From: an uncultured Eubacteriales bacterium
GTDB taxonomy: Bacteria > Bacillota > Clostridia > Peptostreptococcales > Anaerovoracaceae
Direction: 5' to 3'
Length of the DNA stretch: 54,025 nucleotides
NCBI GenBank assembly: GCA_902774265.1
Contig: CACYHR010000015.1
Span: forward strand, 1-54,025
A model generated the notes under the pieces. That model did no database searches, was not told the origin of the DNA, and saw only the letters and a program-made list of their open reading frames with translations. This document shows positions 2,974-51,871 of the stretch, in pieces (positions within the stretch are counted from its first letter, which is position 1; every line of letters begins with the position of its first letter). The translations under genes were made by a program, and so were the position numbers.

Positions 2974-3316
2974 CTGATGTGCCCTTCTCACGCAGAAGCT
3001 TTTCTCCATATTCTGTAAATGCATACCAGTAGGTGTGATCGAATTTATCATCATCAAGTACATCTATGCTGATAATGCCTTTAGCCTCAAGTTTTCTGAC
3101 TGAGTTGCGTACCATGTCTTCTGTCAGAAACTGAATATGATCAGTCATGGTTTTCTGCGTGCATTTTACCCATGTCATACCGTTCACAGCTTTCAAGTCG
3201 GCCCCACTGAACTGCATATCTTTGATAAGATCGGCAATCACTGCTTCCCTGAGGCCGTAGAGAGCTGCGATCCTGATATTATATTTTCTTTCGTTTTCTT
3301 TGATGATCTTAAGCAT
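2957..3316 (-). CDS. Winged-helix-like protein of the mobile element, 119 aa
   Basis: The start at 3316 has AAAGGAG 10 bases before it; the longer frame to 3373 would run through a terminator hairpin and is unlikely. The body reads like a MarR/replication-initiator winged helix. An N-terminal helical region (residues 1-50) is followed by KTMTDHIQFLTEDMVRNSVR as helix-turn-recognition helix, then the KLEAKGIISIDVLDDDKFDHTYWYAFTEYG wing (about 78-107). This matches small DNA-binding proteins in ICE replication or regulation modules. It may regulate this operon or serve in replication. The DNA target is unknown. Confidence 0.65.
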   Translation of the reverse strand: MLKIIKENERKYNIRIAALYGLREAVIADLIKDMQFSGADLKAVNGMTWVKCTQKTMTDHIQFLTEDMVRNSVRKLEAKGIISIDVLDDDKFDHTYWYAFTEYGEKLLREKGTSDEGTT

Positions 3317-3345
3317 TGCTCTCTTTCTCCTTTGCTCAAAATAAA

Positions 3346-3373
3346 ATGGCGGCCACCGTGACGATGCCGCCAT
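3346..3373 (-). terminator. Intrinsic terminator after the parA-parB unit
   Basis: A perfect 8-bp stem (ATGGCGGC / GCCGCCAT) with a 12-base loop is followed on the minus strand by TTTTATTTTG. It ends the parA-parB transcript and lies just before the winged-helix gene. Confidence 0.8.
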
Positions 3374-3472
3374 ATTATGTCAGTTACATCTTTAGATTTT
3401 GACTATAATGCATGTAATATTCTTGAGATTATTATCATCTTATTACTTTTTGTGAACTGTCAGTGACCGTTA

Positions 3473-4203
3473 TTACCTCTCATCATCCCTTTCCCGCTGT
3501 CTTTGACGATGTCTGCCATAGAATTCCATAGCTGCCGCTATATAGTCTTCTCTCTTGGACATCGGCAGATCCGGCGGGAAGAGTTTACTGAAACGATCAC
3601 CTTTGAGAACTATCTTCTCTTTCTGATTAGGCTTTTCCTCCGTCAAGATCGCCTCGATCGCTTCAGGAGTCAGCTTGCCTTCATCACACATCTTCCTCAT
3701 CCTGATAGTCTGCGCATGTGACGGTGTGCATTGCTCTTCCTCGATGTGCTGCCAGATATAACCCTGCTTCAGTTTAGGGATATATGAAAGTTCGACAGCC
3801 GGTCTGAGTGCGATCTTGCCCTCATCTACCATATCCAGAAGCTCCGGGATAAGCTCGGTGAGGCGGATGTATCTCCTAACCTGATCCTGACTTTTTCCTA
3901 CCTGATCACCAAGTAATTCTCTTGAGGTCTTAGACTTCTGTGCCCGGAGATGAGTTCATATCTTCCGTTTTCCTTTTTTCTGACCGTAGCAGGCGTCATG
4001 ACACCATGAGCTTTGATAGATTCGACCAGATTCTCCATATCCTCGTCATTTTTGACTTTATATGGATGATTCGGAAACGGATCTATCTTTTCAAGAGGGA
4101 TCTCATAGATCCGTTTCAGCTTTGCATCATTCCTTTCCTCCTGTGAGGAGAAGAGTTCATCGAATGATGGCAGTTTCATTTCTCTGTTTTTCCCGTTCGA
4201 CAA
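3473..4203 (-). pseudogene. parB: parB pseudogene: internal deletion plus frameshift
   Basis: The first 90 or so codons encode the start of a ParB/Spo0J-family partition protein: FDELFSSQEE, then EKIDPFPNHPYKVKNDEDM, VESIKAHGVMTPATVRKK and ELISGHR. The start is TTG at 4203 with GGAGG upstream, overlapping the end of parA by 47 bases. Directly after GHR the frame changes. In the -1 frame the text continues SKTSRELLGDQVGKSQDQ and RRYIRLTELIPELLDMVDEG, and ends at 3473. The normal stretch between these parts (the rest of the GHRR box and the following helices, roughly 60 residues) is missing. The lost DNA was not a multiple of three, so no full ParB is made. A sequencing or assembly error would have to remove about 180 bases and is less likely. 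Confidence 0.85.
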
Positions 4204-6057: not shown

Positions 6058-6415
6058 TGGTGGAGACGGTGGGAATCGAACCCACGTCCAAGAGCATTTC
6101 CGGAAGAGCTTCTCTCATGCTTAGCCGGGTATTTGGTTCTCGCCCGCTGAGCGTCACACGGCGGACTCACAGCGGACCATCCCGTAGATACTAATGCGCT
6201 GCCGGGATGTCACGCATTAGTTTTTCTGCATAAATGATGCCGGATCCTGTGCCTGCAGACGAACTCAGGCCGACACGCGGGGCTGAACTATGCAGCCAGT
6301 GCGAAATTGTTTGTGTTTGTTTTAGCGTTTCTTTTTAACGGGTACTTTTAACGTGGATCACCACCACGGCATGCTACTCTTCGTTCCACACACCTGTCGA
6401 AACCAGTACGTCCCC
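6058..6415 (-). ncRNA. ssrA: Transfer-messenger RNA (tmRNA, 10Sa RNA)
   Basis: The tRNA-like domain is clear. The 5' end GGGGACG pairs with CGTCTCC at the 3' end, the T-arm reads GTGGGTTCGATTCCCAC, and CCA is encoded. The 5' part has the conserved CTGGTTTCGACAGG. The resume codon GCT is at 6326, and the tag frame runs to TAG at 6288, giving AKTNTNNFALAA, whose ALAA end is recognised by ClpXP-type proteases. With SmpB it rescues stalled ribosomes and marks the nascent chain for decay. The 358-nt length is normal. The element at 1-6057 sits on its 3' side and leaves the gene intact. Confidence 0.97.
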
Positions 6416-6461: not shown

Positions 6462-6538
6462 GCGCCTTTTTTGCAGGTCCAGAATGCAAATCCAGAATGC
6501 AGTTTCAGAACCATATCAATGACTATAACCTCAATGAT

Positions 6539-6710
6539 TCAACCAGGAGCAAAGCTCCAACAAGCTCGCTTGATTGGAGCGAGCGACGCCGTCAACAGAC
6601 ACCGGGAGCTTCAACTCCCGAGAGCATCAGTGGGGGATTGTTACCCACCACTGATGCTCGAAAATGGAACCCGCCGCCTAAGAGGCGGGGGACATCCGGT
6701 GTCTGTTATA
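6539..6710 (+). repeat. Palindromic intergenic repeat, complete copy (copy A)
   Basis: The unit opens with a GGAGC-AAA-GCTCC hairpin (6546-6558) and the box TTGATTGGAGCGAGCGACGCC. It is then closed by a perfect 12-bp inverted repeat: AACAGACACCGG at 6594-6605 and CCGGTGTCTGTT at 6696-6707. Inside lie three hairpins: GGGAG...CTCCC, a 12-bp stem GAGCATCAGTGG/CCACTGATGCTC, and a GC-rich CCCGCC...GGCGGG stem. The first 97 bases recur at 39912-40008 with two mismatches, and the second half recurs at 49214-49324 on the other strand. The layout suggests a folded RNA or a non-autonomous element related to IS200/IS605-type palindromic ends; no ORF is inside. Confidence 0.85.
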
Positions 6711-6761
6711 TTTCCGGCTCTTCACTGGATCAAAAAGATTGCAGCATGTATTCAATTTCTT

Positions 6762-7673
6762 TTACAAATTGAGCAGTATCAGTGCGGTGATTATCATGAG
6801 GATGGCGGTCTTTTGTTTTGGAGTTATTTTTTCATGGAAGATCAGTACGCCTGCGATGCTGACAAGGATTATCGTACCTGTGCTGTATGTCGGATAGACG
6901 ATGACGGCCGGCACATATGCGAGTGCTGCAAGCAGAAACCTGGCTGTGTAGAAATTCGGTATTCCTATGAGGCAGCCGAAGAGTACGTCATCGCGTGTCA
7001 GTCCCTGTCTGCTCCAGACAGCTGCCATGGTACACAGTATGATTGCGGATATAAATGTGTATAAGAGAAAGTGTTCATTGAGATCGCTGCTGCCCAGTTC
7101 TTCATAAATCTTTGACATTGCATCGCCTGAACCTCCCATCAGCAAAAGTGCTATCAGGGCTTTTGGAGTGGTGACGGTTATGTCTGACGATTTGCTGCTG
7201 TCAGTTTTATCCGTCTTTCCGCTCTTCCCGTATTTTCCGCTCAGGTTCAGCACCAGTATTGCCGCTACTGCCAGGATTATTCCGCAGATCTGTAACCGGC
7301 CCGGGCGCTCGCCGAATACGATGATGGCCGTCAGAGTCGGTACCAGAACGCCGAGTTTCATGAATGTCGCGGACATGGTCACTCCATTTTTGCGGATATT
7401 GTACTGATAGAGGATGAACCCTCCCACATAGAAAAAACCGTTCACAAGACCCATAAGCTGCGTTTCGCGCCCGTCGGCCGAATGAACGATAAAAGATCCC
7501 GTCCCGGTTTCGCCCGCGCCTGTCGCAGCGATGGTATAAGCAAGAGAGAGTATCAGACATATTAAATAATTGACGGCGAGCACGGAAATGTTATTTTTTA
7601 TCCTGTGCTCGCCGAGTCTCATCATTATTGCAATGAGTGCGCTGCAGCATAATGCTGCCGTCAGATATACCAT
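6762..7673 (-). CDS. DMT/EamA-family membrane transporter, 303 aa
   Basis: About ten hydrophobic segments in two repeated halves, as in EamA (drug/metabolite transporter) proteins. The N-terminal half has a motif ending KNGVTMSATFMKLGVLVPTL, and the loop after TM5 is polar and Ser/Lys-rich (GKYGKSGKTDKTDSSKS). The C-terminal half ends ITPKQKTAILMIITALILLN. Such proteins export metabolites, amino acids or nucleobase-like compounds; the substrate cannot be read from sequence. It lies downstream of pncB on the same strand with an 80-base gap, so co-transcription and a link to NAD precursors are possible but unproven. Confidence 0.85.
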   Translation of the reverse strand: MVYLTAALCCSALIAIMMRLGEHRIKNNISVLAVNYLICLILSLAYTIAATGAGETGTGSFIVHSADGRETQLMGLVNGFFYVGGFILYQYNIRKNGVTMSATFMKLGVLVPTLTAIIVFGERPGRLQICGIILAVAAILVLNLSGKYGKSGKTDKTDSSKSSDITVTTPKALIALLLMGGSGDAMSKIYEELGSSDLNEHFLLYTFISAIILCTMAAVWSRQGLTRDDVLFGCLIGIPNFYTARFLLAALAYVPAVIVYPTYSTGTIILVSIAGVLIFHEKITPKQKTAILMIITALILLNL

Positions 7674-7753: not shown

Positions 7754-9217
7754 TTACATGTTTGCAGAACCGTATTTGTTGAGCAGGTCGTGCTTGAGGT
7801 TCCAGAGCGGCTTGGACAGGTCTACATAGTATACCTGCGGATTTTCAAATCTCAGGAACTCGCCCCATAGCTTGTCGATCTGCTCTGTGCAGGTTTTGCG
7901 GATATCCTGGATATCAGGTTCATCATATACCAGCTCGCCTTTTTCGAAAATAGGAACGAGGAGTTCCTTTGCCTCGTAATTCTCGAGAACCTTGCGTTTC
8001 CATACAGCATTCGGATCGAAGATCTCATACGGTTTGCCGTCAGGAATCTCTTCTTCGCGGAGCATGATCACATCAGCCAGAGCCTTGCCTGTTTCCTTAT
8101 CAAAGAATCTGACGACTTTTTTGAAGCCCGGATTCGTGATCTTTTCGATGTTTTCGGAAATCTTCATCTTCGGAACCATGTTGCCGTTTCTCATGATACC
8201 CGAAAGTTTGTATACACCGCCGAATACAGGTTCCGATCTCGCGGTGATCAGTCTTTCTCCGACGCCGAATGAATCGATTTTCGCGCCTTCAAGTATTACA
8301 TCTCTGATTATGTATTCATCGAGCGAGTTGCTGATAACTATCTTGCAGTCCTCAAGGCCCTCTGCATCGAGTATCTTACGGCATTCTCTGGTCAGATATG
8401 TGATGTCTCCGGAATCTATCCTGATTCCCATGCTCTGCGGCTTGAGTTCCTTGAAAACTCTGATCGCATTAGGCAGTCCGGATTTGAGAACGTTATATGT
8501 ATCGATCAGCAGAGTCGCATTCTGCGGATACAGCTCTGTGTATTTTCTGAATGCTTCGTATTCGCTGTCAAAGCTCTGTACCCAGCTGTGCGCCATCGTT
8601 CCGAGCGCCGGAGTGTCGTGGTTTCTGTCAGCGATCGTGCATGCGGTGCCGGCGCAGCCTGCGATATATGAAGCTCTTGCTCCGTATACTGCAGCGTCCG
8701 CTCCATGTGCCCTTCTTGTTCCGAATTCCATGACCGGACGACCGAGCGCCGATCTTACTATCCTGTTGGATTTGGTCGCGATCAGACTCTGATGGTTGAT
8801 CTGCATAAGTATAAATGTTTCTACGAACTGAGCCTGGATCAGCGGTCCCTTAACGATCATGATCGGTTCGTGCGGAAAAATCGGATAGCCTTCCGGAACC
8901 GACCAGACATCGCAGGTGAATTTAAAATCGATGAGATAGTCAAGGAACTCTTCGGTGAAGCAATTCTTTGTCCTCAGGTAATCAATATCCGCCTCGGTGA
9001 ATTTGAGTCTTTTCATATATGCGATGATCTGTTCGAGTCCCGCCATGATAGCAAAACCGCCGCCGTCAGGCACCCTGCGGAAGAATACATCAAAGCACGC
9101 CTCTGCATCGCGCATATCCGAGTTGAAATATCCGTTTGCCATCGTGATCTCATAGAAATCAGTCAGCATCGTGAGGTTGTAATCATTAAGTCTGTGGTAA
9201 TCTTTTCTTTCTGTCAT
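7754..9217 (-). CDS. pncB: Nicotinate phosphoribosyltransferase, 487 aa
   Basis: It makes nicotinate mononucleotide from nicotinate and PRPP with ATP, the entry step of the Preiss-Handler NAD salvage route in the cytosol. Family signatures: N-terminal LNDYNLTMLTDFYEITMANG, then a central FGTRRAHG and RASYIAGCAGTA (about 165-190), and IRIDSGDITYL (about 270-280), which carries conserved phosphate-binding and base-binding residues. The length is that of the bacterial type with the C-terminal extension. A clear Shine-Dalgarno is not seen next to the ATG; the nearest purine-rich site is about 24 bases away. Confidence 0.95.
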   Translation of the reverse strand: MTERKDYHRLNDYNLTMLTDFYEITMANGYFNSDMRDAEACFDVFFRRVPDGGGFAIMAGLEQIIAYMKRLKFTEADIDYLRTKNCFTEEFLDYLIDFKFTCDVWSVPEGYPIFPHEPIMIVKGPLIQAQFVETFILMQINHQSLIATKSNRIVRSALGRPVMEFGTRRAHGADAAVYGARASYIAGCAGTACTIADRNHDTPALGTMAHSWVQSFDSEYEAFRKYTELYPQNATLLIDTYNVLKSGLPNAIRVFKELKPQSMGIRIDSGDITYLTRECRKILDAEGLEDCKIVISNSLDEYIIRDVILEGAKIDSFGVGERLITARSEPVFGGVYKLSGIMRNGNMVPKMKISENIEKITNPGFKKVVRFFDKETGKALADVIMLREEEIPDGKPYEIFDPNAVWKRKVLENYEAKELLVPIFEKGELVYDEPDIQDIRKTCTEQIDKLWGEFLRFENPQVYYVDLSKPLWNLKHDLLNKYGSANM

Positions 9218-9265
9218 TTTACAGCACCAGTATAATATCCTTTCTGTGCGGGAGTGATAAATTAA

Positions 9266-9583
9266 TTAATCTTTGTCCTTGGATTTATCTTTTGACTTGT
9301 CTTTTTTTGATTTATCTTCTTTATCTTCGGATTTATCTTTGGATTCGTCTTCGGATTTGTCTTCGGATTCGTCTTCCTTTGAGTCTGCTGCTTCGGCCGC
9401 ATCCTCCTCTTCGGCCTGATCCTGCTGTTCATATGTCTGCTGCGCCTGCTCCTCTGCCAGCTTTTTAGGATAGTCCAGTATGATCTGCATCCTCCAGTAA
9501 ATAATTCCCGCTGCGATTGCAACAATAATTATCGCCAGAAGTATATCGTTTATATTGTGAAAGAAATTCTTTATCAATCTCAT
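9266..9583 (-). CDS. Small membrane-anchored protein with charged Lys/Asp/Ser-rich tail, 105 aa
   Basis: One N-terminal transmembrane helix (about residues 12-32) is followed by a Glu/Gln/Ala-rich segment (40-65) and a tail of short charged repeats (S-K/E-D-K, 70-105). The tail encodes near-repeats of GATTCGTCTTCGGATTTGTC type on the plus strand, and because of this periodicity another frame is open too. The start has GGAGC about 8 bases upstream. This resembles membrane-anchored low-complexity proteins of Clostridia with no known role. The tail probably faces the outside if the N-terminus is inside. Confidence 0.6.
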   Translation of the reverse strand: MRLIKNFFHNINDILLAIIIVAIAAGIIYWRMQIILDYPKKLAEEQAQQTYEQQDQAEEEDAAEAADSKEDESEDKSEDESKDKSEDKEDKSKKDKSKDKSKDKD

Positions 9584-37565: not shown

Positions 37566-37667
37566 AGCCGGGATCAGGCAGCACCCTGATTATCGGAGAA
37601 GCTCAGCTTCCGCAGATCAATGCTTCCTACCTTACGGCAACGCTGTTTGATCCGGCGTCTGTTATTA
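37566..37667 (+). repeat. Palindromic intergenic repeat, divergent copy (copy H)
   Basis: Similar to copy D (41028-41205): both share AGATCAATGCTTCC, TTACGGCA and GCCGTTTG/GCTGTTTG blocks. It ends CCGGCGTCTGTTAT, like copy A's CCGGTGTCTGTTAT. Its end overlaps the stop codon of the rhodanese gene. Confidence 0.6.
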
Positions 37668-39688: not shown

Positions 39689-39751
39689 ACGTCTTCTCCT
39701 TTATGTTATTTAAATAAATATCTTTCAAAGCTGTGCAGTGTAATAATTCAG

Positions 39752-39782
39752 TTCGACCGGGAGCAAAGCTCCGGCAAGCTCG
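39752..39782 (+). repeat. Palindromic intergenic repeat, short fragment (copy C)
   Basis: A 31-base copy of the opening of the family: TTCGACCGGGAGCAAAGCTC and CGGCAAGCTCG, with a GGAGC/GCTCC hairpin. It lies upstream of the phosphohexomutase start. Confidence 0.65.
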
Positions 39783-39887: not shown

Positions 39888-39911
39888 GGTATTTTTATGT
39901 ATGTCTCAGGT

Positions 39912-40008
39912 TCAACCAGGAGCAAAGCTCCAACAAGCTCGCTTGATTGGAGCGAGCGACGCCGTCAACAGACACCGGGAGCTTCAGCTCCTGAGAGCAT
40001 CAGTGGGG
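39912..40008 (+). repeat. Palindromic intergenic repeat, first half (copy B)
   Basis: 97 bases matching 6539-6635 with only two mismatches. It ends within the 3' end of the restriction endonuclease gene: the stop codon at 40000-40002 and the last His codon lie inside the repeat. Confidence 0.9.
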
Positions 40009-40980
40009 CGGCGTTACAGGAAGATAAACATCAAGTACGAAGCTGCGGCCATTTTCGTTGCTCTCTCCGACCAGAATGGTGCAGCATACTGCCCAGCCTC
40101 CGTCAAATGTGAACTGTACGGTATCTCTGGACAACTCGCCGTATCTGCCATTGGCAAATCTGACATCAAGCAGCTCCGCCGGGAATCTCACGTTCGGAGT
40201 ATGGAGATTAGGGCTGCCCGGGATGCGGCCGAGCCCTCTGCGGGAATTGACAGCTCCGATTCGGGTAACCCCGACCTCGTCGATAGGATTGATGTAATAG
40301 TAGTCGATCTTGCCGTAGAAATAGTCTATCAGCATCTTAGGTGCACCCGGATGATCCCAGCAGATTCTCGGGAGCTCTCTACCGAGTGCCTCCAGCATAG
40401 GAGTTATCATATTGTCATATACGAAGTCATCATCCTTAAGGAGTTCTCTCCATGTTTCTCTGTCATGCTTGGAGATCTTTTCGAGTATCGCATTCATTTC
40501 CGTGAAATATTCATTTGAGCATGGAACCCCGAATATTCTTTCACCGAAATCATCGATCTTGTTGTACACATTTACGATGTCGTTCATGTATGTAGCTATA
40601 TCCCTGTCGGCTACAGGCATGGTTGCCAGAACCTTTGCATCGCTTTTTATCGAAATAGCAATACGCCAGTCCAGATCCTCACGTTCGAGCAGTATCTCCG
40701 CAAACGATTCATGTCTCTTCCTGACATCTTTATCGTTGAATCTTATGACAAGCGGATCACCCTTAATCTCGTAAATATAAGGTTCTTTGGAGAAAATACG
40801 TCTGAAGGCAGGTCTGGCCTTTTTGAGTTCGGCCTCTTTTCTTGCCGCAGGCGTGTTTGCCCAGATCAATCCATAATCATCATAAGCGTCATTAGCATCT
40901 ATTAAATAAGGGATACCCTCTTCTCCGAGAAGCTGCTCTATCGCCTTTGTTGATGCTGCTACAAGCAAACCGTTTACCAT
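40000..40980 (-). CDS. HaeIII-family type II restriction endonuclease, 326 aa, without visible methylase
   Basis: The true start is at 40980, with GGGAGGG ahead of it; the longer frame to 41208 passes through repeat copy D. The family is recognised from FGERIFGVPCSNEYF (about 145-159), LIDYFYGKIDYYYI and RFPAELLDVRF...DTVQFTFDGGWAV near the C-terminus. D85-V and ISIK (109-112, K112) fit the PD-(D/E)xK active site. HaeIII cuts GGCC, but the target here is unknown. No modification methylase is within the window. The end of the gene lies inside a repeat copy, so the C-terminus may be rebuilt. A strong terminator follows. Confidence 0.7.
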   Translation of the reverse strand: MVNGLLVAASTKAIEQLLGEEGIPYLIDANDAYDDYGLIWANTPAARKEAELKKARPAFRRIFSKEPYIYEIKGDPLVIRFNDKDVRKRHESFAEILLEREDLDWRIAISIKSDAKVLATMPVADRDIATYMNDIVNVYNKIDDFGERIFGVPCSNEYFTEMNAILEKISKHDRETWRELLKDDDFVYDNMITPMLEALGRELPRICWDHPGAPKMLIDYFYGKIDYYYINPIDEVGVTRIGAVNSRRGLGRIPGSPNLHTPNVRFPAELLDVRFANGRYGELSRDTVQFTFDGGWAVCCTILVGESNENGRSFVLDVYLPVTPPH

Positions 40981-41027
40981 CGTCTTTCCCTCCCAATGAA
41001 TATTTTTGCCATGACGGCAGTATTCCT

Positions 41028-41205
41028 TCAAACAGGAACAAAGCTTCAACAAGCCCGCTTTATTGGAGCGAGTGGCGCCGTACTTACCGGAGGAACTGCC
41101 TCCGGAGATCAATGCTTCCGATTTTACGGCAGCGCCGTTTGGTACGGATGAAGCATTTACCGGCGCCGGGAGCTTCGGCTCCTGACATCGTCGGCCGGTG
41201 ATCGT
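41028..41205 (+). repeat. Palindromic intergenic repeat, divergent full copy (copy D)
   Basis: It begins CAGGAACAAAGCTTCAACAA and has TTGGAGCGAGTGGCGCCG, as in copy A (TTGGAGCGAGCGACGCCG). An inner stem AATGCTTC...GAAGCATT (about 41111-41157) is enclosed by GGCGCCG/CGGCGCC, and it ends with GGGAGCTTCGGCTCC. Here the stem arms differ from copy A but the plan is the same. It lies just upstream of the restriction gene. Confidence 0.7.
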
Positions 41206-41382
41206 CACACGCTGCCGACATTCGAAGATTGAACCTTCTGCTGTATAATATACTCCAAAAAAAGCAGTCGGTAAAGACTCCCTTCTACAGTTATTTTTTA
41301 TCGGTAAAACCGGTTACAATTCACTGAGCAGCCAGATTCATACATAAGCGAAATACCTCGGAATCGGCCGATGGTTGAATTG

Positions 41383-48779: not shown

Positions 48780-48859
48780 GTAACGGAGGCTGAGCTCCTC
48801 CGATAAGTACGGAGTCGCTCGCTCCAATCAAACGCGCGTGTTGGAGATTTACTCCCGGC
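48780..48859 (-). repeat. Palindromic intergenic repeat, first half (copy E)
   Basis: On the minus strand it reads GCCGGGAGTAAATCTCCAAC, then TTGATTGGAGCGAGCGACTCCG, then GGAGGAGCTCAGCCTCC. It follows the plan of copies A and B with changes in the arms. Confidence 0.75.
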
Positions 48860-48860
48860 T

Positions 48861-48885
48861 AAAAAAAAAGGAGCTGTTCGCTCCG
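48861..48885 (-). terminator. Terminator of the 59-aa membrane protein gene
   Basis: The hairpin GGAGC-GAACA-GCTCC on the minus strand is followed by nine T. It adjoins repeat copy E. Confidence 0.75.
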
Positions 48886-49213: not shown

Positions 49214-49324
49214 TTAACAGATGTCGACTGTCCCCGCCTTTAAGGCGGCGGTTCTATTTTCGACCATCAGTGGCCGGTCACAATCCCCGCTGATGGTCTC
49301 AGGAGCCGAAGCTCCCGGTTGAAT
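49214..49324 (-). repeat. Palindromic intergenic repeat, second half (copy F)
   Basis: On the minus strand it reads ACCGGGAGCTTCGGCTCCTG, then AGACCATCAGCGGGG...CCACTGATGGTCG, then the hairpin CCGCCGCCTTAAAGGCGGGG and GACATCTGTT. This is the 3' half of copy A, with paired changes in the stem (GAGCATCAG/CTGATGCTC becomes GACCATCAG/CTGATGGTC). Confidence 0.85.
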
Positions 49325-50466: not shown

Positions 50467-51747
50467 ATGATCAAACAGGCTCTTGTTGGAATGAGCGGCG
50501 GTGTCGATTCTAGTGTGGCGGCGTACCTTGTGAGAGAGGCGGGCTACGATACGACGGGCGCTACGATGAGATTATTTGATAACGAGACTATCGGACTTGA
50601 CAGCGGCAAGACCTGCTGCAGTTTAAGCAGTATAGAGGATGCATGTGCTGTCGCAAACAGGCTCGGAATTTCCTACGTCGTATATGATATGCGTGAGGAT
50701 TTCAAGCGTGAAGTAATAAATCGCTTTGTTGATGCCTATGAACACGGCTCTACACCGAATCCCTGCGTTGCCTGCAACAAACATCTTAAATTCGATTTGT
50801 TATATCAGCTGTGTGCAAGAGATCTGCTAAGCGATCAGCCGGATGCAGGAGATTTGCTTAGTAATGCAGCTTCTAATGATGATTCCGGAACATATACAAC
50901 AAATTCAGACGGAAGTTCGGACTCTAAATCTGTAGTTTTGAATTCCGGGGTGAATAATGCCGGTAATGCGAATACAGGCAAATCCGCTGATAGCAATGGC
51001 TATACTGCAGTAAGAAGTCTTGCGGAGGCTCCGCCTCTCAGCATTGCAACCGGCCACTACGCGAGGATAGAGCACGACCGCGGAGCGGGCAGATTTCTGC
51101 TTAGAAAGGGTGTTGATCCGGGTAAGGATCAGAGTTACTTTTTGTGTGATCTGACGCAGGAGCAGCTCGGAAGAACACTATTTCCGCTTGGCTCGATGAC
51201 GAAGAGTGAAGTCAGGGATGTCGCTGAATCTTTGGGGCTTGTCACGGCTAAGAAGAGAGAGAGTCAGGACATATGCTTTGTTCCCGGGGGCGACTATGCT
51301 TCTTTTATAAAAGGATATACCGGGCATGAATACCCGTACGGTGATTTTGTCGATGCACACGGGAATGTGATGGGCGAGCATAAAGGTATCATCAAGTATA
51401 CGATAGGTCAGCGAAAGGGCTTGGGGCTGGCGCTTAAAAAGCCGGCGTATGTCTGCGCGCTGGATGTTGAGAACAACAGGGTAATACTCGGTGATAATGG
51501 TGATCTTTTCAAACGGGATATGACCGCTTCGGAATTCAACTGGATCGCCATGGATGTTCCGTCTTCGGATATACGGGCATCGGCCCGGATCAGATATCGT
51601 CACCACGAAGCGCCGGCGAGGATCATTCCTCTTGGAGCTGACCGAGTGAAAATTGAGTTTGATGAACCGCAGCGGGCAATGACGCGGGGGCAGTCGGTCG
51701 TTGTTTATGACGGGGAATACGTTATCGGCGGCGGAATCATTGATTAA
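50467..51747 (+). CDS. mnmA: tRNA-specific 2-thiouridylase MnmA, 426 aa, with Ser/Asn-rich insertion
   Basis: It thiolates U34 of tRNA for Lys, Glu and Gln. The PP-loop ATP site is GMSGGVDSS (8-16). The catalytic cysteines are C100 or C103 in NPCVACNK and the later DICFVPGG Cys. HYARIEH (197-203) and FVPGGDYASFI are family blocks. The usual length is about 360. Residues about 118-190 are a Ser/Asn/Asp/Thr-rich stretch of low complexity in place of a short loop before IATGHYARIE. AAGGAG precedes the ATG. Confidence 0.96.
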   Translation: MIKQALVGMSGGVDSSVAAYLVREAGYDTTGATMRLFDNETIGLDSGKTCCSLSSIEDACAVANRLGISYVVYDMREDFKREVINRFVDAYEHGSTPNPCVACNKHLKFDLLYQLCARDLLSDQPDAGDLLSNAASNDDSGTYTTNSDGSSDSKSVVLNSGVNNAGNANTGKSADSNGYTAVRSLAEAPPLSIATGHYARIEHDRGAGRFLLRKGVDPGKDQSYFLCDLTQEQLGRTLFPLGSMTKSEVRDVAESLGLVTAKKRESQDICFVPGGDYASFIKGYTGHEYPYGDFVDAHGNVMGEHKGIIKYTIGQRKGLGLALKKPAYVCALDVENNRVILGDNGDLFKRDMTASEFNWIAMDVPSSDIRASARIRYRHHEAPARIIPLGADRVKIEFDEPQRAMTRGQSVVVYDGEYVIGGGIID

Positions 51748-51851
51748 ACCGGGATGGGGTTAGATTCCGGGCGGAATTATTGAGTGAGACGGGACGGGAT
51801 TAGATTCCGGGCGGAATTATTGAGTGAGACGGGACGGGATTAGATTCCGGC
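51730..51851 (+). repeat. Tandem repeat derived from the 3' end of mnmA, 40-bp period
   Basis: The unit GGCGGAATTATTGAGTGAGA then CGGGACGGGATTAGATTCCG occurs twice (from 51770 and from 51810), preceded by the mnmA end itself (from 51730), which matches it with several changes. Each unit includes an in-frame-like TGA. It fills the gap between mnmA and hydE. Confidence 0.9.
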
Positions 51852-51871
51852 CGGCATAAAGGAGGCATGCA

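Follow-up and report, generated by a model that had tools for sequence, protein, structure and literature searches.

A structured, mobile, non-autonomous repeat family of uncultured Clostridia that mostly lies 3' of TATAA

Results

The 54,025-nt stretch of DNA analysed here (the window; contig CACYHR010000015.1 of GCA_902774265.1) carries a complete copy of a folded repeat between a protein-coding frame and a tmRNA gene. All three are on the minus strand, on which a 303-aa frame (6762-7673) precedes the copy by 49 nt and the tmRNA gene follows it after about 120 nt. The initial annotation had placed a structured repeat at 6539-6710, and it is there: the repeated stretch spans 6538-6712, the element proper is a complete 168-nt copy at 6538-6705, and 6706-6710 is its target. 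The tmRNA gene (6058-6415, minus strand), directly downstream of the element on the same strand, carries the tag AKTNTNNFALAA. Elsewhere in the window we noted a tandem repeat at 51730-51864, with a 40-nt period and three 55-nt copies in register (GGCGGAATTATTGAG...), and short direct repeats of the TCTTTATCTTCGGATTTATC type at 9270-9375, within the minus-strand frame 9266-9583. The parts of the element and its further copies in the window are as follows, with the strand on which the element reads.

6538-6705, minus strand: complete element; in minus-strand reading the 5' (left) end is 6705 and the 3' (right) end 6538; the sharp ends are common to copies with unrelated flanks
6706-6710, minus strand: target TATAA (TTATA on the plus strand), immediately 5' of the element, from per-base flank counts and from a relative's empty site at a different locus
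6696-6705, minus strand: closing stem P1, 5' arm CAGACACCGG; perfect 10-bp helix with the 3' arm, both-sided changes in 4 of 8 counted pairs
6596-6605, minus strand: closing stem P1, 3' arm CCGGTGTCTG; its first two bases can alternatively be used by P4
6670-6691, minus strand: left-end hairpin P2 CCCCCGCCTCTTAGGCGGCGGG with a bulged C; 98.1% of main-helix cells paired, no both-sided changes
6622-6659, minus strand: large hairpin P3 GAGCATCAGTGG...CCACTGATGCTC; 4 of 11 main-helix pairs changed on both sides, 98.4% of cells paired
6604-6619, minus strand: small hairpin P4 GGGAGTTGAAGCTCCC; 91.3% of cells paired, no both-sided changes
6554-6580, minus strand: right-end imperfect hairpin P5 with a bulged T (GCTCCAA-T-CAAGC-GA-GCTTG-TTGGAGC); 96.0% of cells paired, one compensatory change, CG to AU, in L033
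6546-6558, minus strand: alternative right-end hairpin P6 GGAGCTTTGCTCC, 8 nt from the 3' end and mutually exclusive with P5; 98.2% paired, no both-sided changes
39911-40017, minus strand: second copy, interrupted within the large hairpin
41027-41235 (41027-41111 plus 41159-41235), minus strand: third copy, with an extra internal module M and an interrupted B half
39751-39782, minus strand: A-half fragment
37598-37655, minus strand: module M fused to an element end
48809-48863, plus strand, opposite orientation: A-half fragment, then the start of module M
49215-49319, plus strand, opposite orientation: B half, the initial annotation's copy F, recognised by a paired change

The element is modular, and its copies are often rearranged at one place. 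The further window copies are real; those at 48809-48863 and 49215-49319 match on the minus strand, and the element in them reads on the plus strand, opposite to the other copies. An optional module M exists in addition to halves A and B. Several copies show a deletion, duplication or truncation at one arm of P3, either at its base or at its apex. These breakpoints fit hairpin slippage or stalled copying; one of them, in L030, coincides with an assembly gap (a run of N). The frequency of shortened copies is possibly inflated, because short-read assemblers probably favour resolving such copies. Two composite arrangements stood out. Locus L303 (G266, about 1940-2170) holds a full element to which another left end is joined directly, head to tail, and a 184-aa frame lies shortly downstream. 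In L355 (G168, 1500-1680) the left end continues into a different long palindrome, and nearby frames resemble, on our reading of the ORFs, pieces of a mutator-type transposase.

The repeat is abundant in its source genome and scattered through the order. The initial annotation had proposed collecting all copies genome-wide; the genome has 60 exact occurrences of the left-end signature, against 0 for the reversed control pattern, and a 241-base query gave at least 47 matches (40 of 158 candidates were scored). Carriers made up 14 of 60 genomes (its own, 35 of the same genus and 24 of the same order), and all 14 belong to the same genus. A covariance model built from these copies, with 9 first-look candidates scored per genome, matched 11 of the 297 genomes in the order, the source genome among them; these represent four families and 8 of 135 genera. 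The window copy, itself a row of the model's alignment, matches model positions 1-169 of 169 at 200.8 bits. Some distant members have a shorter form, about 110 nt long, and the small hairpin 8 nt from the end is seen again in the copies of other families. The left-end pattern, which contains TAAC, occurs in 17 of 393 genomes and 9 of 158 genera; its reversed control has one match, in one of the 393 (G372).

Near-identical copies occupy many sites within single genomes. Among the matches listed, carriers include metagenome assemblies deposited as Mogibacterium sp. (sheep and goat, ileum or colon) and as uncultured Ruminococcus, Clostridiales, Clostridia and Ruminococcaceae. The pairs G304/G062, G433/G064, G086/G021 and G090/G025 are not independent, since contig places identify them as the same genomes. 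In RUG11231 (G060), where 40 of 178 first-look candidates were scored, most copies among the matches listed lie at contig ends, and most such contigs start or finish in the repeat. The family may hamper short-read assembly of these gut bacteria.

The family also reaches viral contigs. The covariance model gave three strong matches on two of them, L384 and L394, and the strict A-half pattern gave 0 matches on viral contigs. The left-end pattern matches 28 viral contigs, most of them seemingly by chance, since the full model is convincing only for L384 and L394. Contig L394 carries two copies of a related element, at 832-966 and 9194-9331. By blastn, the plasmid and phage collections returned no match to the window copy. 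Rfam returned no match at the gathering score; relaxing the cut-off to E 10 added seven sub-threshold matches, all far from that score. We found no description of this repeat in the literature searched.

The ends of the element are sharp, and its target lies on one side. When copies were lined up with their flanks, the plus-strand ends read TTCAAC at the left and GTCTG-TTAT at the right, with unrelated DNA outside. Across 93 distinct right flanks, TTAT is found in 87-90 of 93 per base and a fifth base, A, in 64 of 93; the opposite flank has a mild A/T preference only. Read on the minus strand, 146 flanks collected by the left-end pattern without a target requirement yield TATAA at T 101, A 125, T 129, A 130 and A 127, and both flank sets contain some chance pattern matches. 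Exact TATAA precedes 17 of 22 distant copies, and the remaining five have the variants AATAA, GATAA, TGTAA (twice) and TATAG.

An empty site distinguishes target from element. In L253 the neighbouring gene terminates at the TTATA that adjoins the element. At the equivalent place the element-free relative L278 reads TTATACAAG and keeps TTATA as its native stop codon; TTATA is therefore target and not element, in a comparison that covers one locus and has a left edge not alignable base by base. A second element-free relative, L277, reads CGTCTGTTATA at the same site (around 1501; its genome, G086, is the same as G021), and the CGTCTG there is the element's tail sequence and may be a scar of loss, possibly of 6 nt. 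At a second locus, L017, relatives keep the end of the left gene with its stop codon and show nothing further.

By eye, ends and flanks contained no terminal inverted repeat and no target-site duplication. The element is inserted 3' of a specific tetra- or pentanucleotide, and each end has a subterminal hairpin: on the left P2, at a distance of 14 nt from the end, and on the right P5 or P6. Most rows of alignment A3 have ATG(T) 5' of the left hairpin, where simple pairing with TATAA is not apparent.

The element forms a stable multi-helix fold. At -96 kcal/mol, the window copy is far more stable than 200 dinucleotide shuffles, which average -57.84 (sd 4.54) and so place it at z -8.41. A 12-bp closing stem had been described, and it exists; its outer 2 bp use the target's TT, which leaves 10 bp inside the element. 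We named a 48-pair structure by hand and then scored it on 23 selected copies, in which 96.5% of cells are standard pairs. This alignment, A1, comprises the window copy, 15 of 22 representatives below 95% identity, 6 of 9 further copies and L197; all but L197 come from 50 distinct full-length copies. Seven representatives with an internal duplication, a deletion or module M were left out, as were two further copies with such changes and L007.

Several helices covary. Taken as counts and not probabilities, because the copies are related, both-sided changes affect 10 of 48 pairs against 4.7 on shuffling, a number equalled in 0 of 500 shuffles, and slid partners give at most 4. Further pair types, at 22, are not above shuffling (22.3; 386 of 500). 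The initial annotation had pointed to a paired change in copy F, from GAGCATCAG/CTGATGCTC to GACCATCAG/CTGATGGTC. That change is present, and it is weaker evidence than claimed because the pair is mismatched in 14 of 23 aligned copies (CC 10, CT 3, CA 1) and paired in 9 (TA 6, GC 2, AT 1); the covariation is carried by other pairs. An RNAalifold consensus keeps P2 and P3, omits the closing stem P1 and shows both-sided changes in 5 of 48 pairs.

The closing stem P1 is the clearest case of covariation across lineages. In six hand-picked copies from four lineages the arms differ, and each pairs with its own partner over 6-10 bp; arms from different lineages pair over at most 5 bp, and within the genus the L082 arm reaches 7 bp with other copies too. 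At the right end, where P5 and P6 exclude each other, the single compensatory change (L033) favours P5. The minus strand has 25 G.U cells against 11-13 A.C, an excess that leans slightly towards that strand.

Copies mostly read in the same direction as the genes around them. Using gene calls from our own ORF scorer, we found that, of 79 hand-listed copies, 49 are flanked on both sides by genes on the element's minus strand and 7 by genes on its plus strand; 12 copies lie between divergent genes, 8 between convergent genes and 3 have a single neighbour. The list omits copies at contig ends, fragments, repeats of one place and smaller window copies, among them L024, L025, L043, L044, L047, L049, L056, L057, L063, L065, L066 and L069-L072, further copies in L034 and L228, and L225, L230, L238, L242, L243 and L259-L263. 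The right neighbour is on the minus strand for 57 copies, and in 13 of these its predicted stop falls within the copy, no more than 7 nt from the edge. GC skew, for 60 of the 79 copies, follows gene direction, so the orientation bias cannot be separated into replication and transcription. The 49-to-7 bias would be in the direction expected if minus strands enter the lagging-strand template. Because the element lies mostly in the sense of the host transcript, its fold may also act in untranslated RNA.

No transposase gene accompanies the repeat consistently. We searched 36 relatives, 20 carriers and 8 more genomes for Y1_Tnp (PF01797) and did not find it consistently present among them: 9 of 20 carrier assemblies have it, several as fragments only, and it went undetected in 11, the heavily loaded G060 among them. 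Such absence from metagenome assemblies is weak evidence, because a gene between repeats may land in a short contig dropped at binning. Around Y1 genes, 31 loci gave no element match at E 5 or better; conversely, the Y1 profile found no Y1 frame in the collected element loci. A long autonomous element with the same ends is absent from 264 sequences, in which the two 'long' rows are one place, an unpaired fragment. TnpA or TnpB genes with the element's ends, suggested earlier as a check, were not found in the loci collected, and only the left-end hairpin resembles an IS605. As for the initial proposal of a stand-alone relative of a TnpB/IscB guide RNA, it is not supported: a tnpB-like frame occurs once in 292 partly overlapping element loci, and Rfam has no match at the gathering score.

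A co-resident IS605 has a similar left-end hairpin. A tnpA-tnpB IS605 resides in G266, G064 and G018, and the G021 version has stops in tnpA. In G266 its left-end hairpin, TCCCCCATCCTCTATAGGTGGCGGG, scores 33-35 against the element consensus TCCCCCGCCTCTATAGGCGGCGGG, where 1020 single-base shuffles each reach maxima of 25-30; the likeness is weaker in G018 (26 against a shuffle maximum of 27) and G064 (21 against 27). P2 resembles the IS605 left-end hairpin in L323, and less so in L160 and L217. The hairpin loops of the two elements also look alike in G266 and in G064, a likeness that over two genomes is suggestive only. The IS605 of L323, L160 and L234 shares with the repeat a left-end hairpin of the form TCCCCC...GGYGGCGGG and a C as the base after the target. 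Unlike the repeat, it appears to have the target TTAA and the right end TCACA, with ends deduced from 3-4 copies, and its hairpin spacing, on those few copies, appears to be 18-20 nt against 14. In G062, L234 holds at about 3140-3945 an IS605 with the left end and tnpB start and most of tnpA deleted, which bears that left-end hairpin.

Discussion

These results establish a real, structured, mobile, non-autonomous repeat family. We favour, at a probability of roughly 0.6, the reading that it is a non-autonomous mobile element working like an IS200/IS605 'ends-only' (PATE-like) element. Its minus strand would fold as single-stranded DNA, likely on the lagging-strand template at the replication fork, and a Y1 HUH transposase supplied in trans would bind the subterminal hairpins. 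The enzyme would cut the left end after TATAA and the right end after TTGAA, and the excised strand would be pasted after another TATAA. Its likeliest source may be an IS605-type element with a left-end hairpin resembling the repeat's.

The comparison with IS200/IS605 concerns anatomy and probable mechanism rather than membership. The initial annotation had suggested a non-autonomous element of this type, and much agrees with it: a TATAA target on one side alone, subterminal hairpins, a left hairpin like that of the co-resident IS605, and neither a terminal inverted repeat nor a duplication seen. The anatomy matches that of IS200/IS605 as described in the available portions of PMC7290912 and PMC6006769. 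Against filing the element there, Y1_Tnp is undetected in 11 of 20 carriers and an autonomous copy with the same ends was not found in the loci collected. We therefore write that the element works like these transposons and do not claim that it is a member, because a transposase with shared ends was not found.

Other readings explain parts of the evidence. Possible, though unlikely, is an order-wide structured family, also present on two viral contigs, moved by an unrecognised enzyme that cuts 3' of TATAA and reads a conserved multi-helix single-stranded DNA or RNA fold, whose closing stem would sequester the newly cut left end; this substrate would be unlike the simple end hairpins of IS608 and ISDra2, or the family would be a bacterial SINE-like retroelement. 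A functional structured RNA (guide-type, or a 3'-UTR element), spreading and maintained through selection at the RNA level, would account for the multi-helix fold, the covarying closing stem, the mostly co-directional neighbours and the excess of G.U over A.C cells. We consider it improbable: single-stranded DNA folding would yield identical covariation, near-identical copies sit at many sites in single genomes, and the Rfam result and the lone tnpB in 292 loci also speak against it. We noticed no common neighbour gene, in neighbourhoods whose gene families were left uncompared. A SINE-like element, copied by a group II-type reverse transcriptase that starts at the 3' end of the element's minus-strand transcript, would fit copies that retain the 3' portion (on the minus strand) and break off midway through the large hairpin, as expected if the enzyme stalled there (L052, L238 and window 39911), and an orientation that follows transcription. 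It looks quite improbable given that RVT_1, found in 4 of 7 carriers examined, is not found in G003, G008 and G009, that L242 and L243 are cut at the opposite side of the same hairpin arm, and that short-read assembly has probably inflated the number of shortened copies.

Two further transposase families could be the mobiliser. The repeat could be a REP/REPIN-like element moved by a domesticated single-copy RAYT (TnpA_REP). By our own reading, Y1 genes of RAYT size exist in G000 (253-aa ORF), G025 (269-aa frame), G266 (253-aa frame) and, many times, G168, and REPs are likewise intergenic folded repeats in what is accessible of PMC6006769. This is nevertheless very improbable, as no copy was found flanking a tnpA_REP gene (0 element matches in the 31 loci around Y1 genes), no Y1 gene was detected in 11 of 20 carriers, and REPs measure 21-65 nt in that source against 168 nt here. 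The least credible of the readings makes the repeat a miniature derivative of some other family that lacks terminal repeats, for example IS91 (Y2) or IS110; IS91-type Y2_Tnp is present in three multicopy carriers (G000, G021 and G064), but in only these 3 of 20, and the similarity of the element to the three loci is limited to short chance matches.

Bacterial genomes commonly contain small folded repeats, whose mobilisers are often unidentified. Here the target, ends, fold and near-identical copies (metagenome assembly SIG258) are clear, so the enzyme can be sought directly.

The repeat shares features with several known systems. Like the ends-only PATEs of IS200/IS605, it has no terminal inverted repeat or duplication seen, lies 3' of a fixed 4-5 nt target and has subterminal imperfect hairpins, and trans-mobilisation is plausible. 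Unlike PATEs, it has a covarying closing stem and internal hairpins, and an autonomous partner with the same ends was not found; its closing stem goes beyond the end hairpins described for IS608 and ISDra2 in the available accounts. REP, BIME and REPIN sequences with their RAYTs also form many intergenic folded copies, whereas our element is longer, and none was found adjoining Y1 genes; the REP hairpin foot is GT[AG]G in the accessible text of PMC6006769. BOX of Streptococcus pneumoniae has terminal inverted repeats likened to ISSpn2 (in the available part of PMC3049150), where none is seen here. In that same account BOX resembles our element in being folded, intergenic, non-autonomous and modular, with boxA, boxB and boxC set beside A, M and B.
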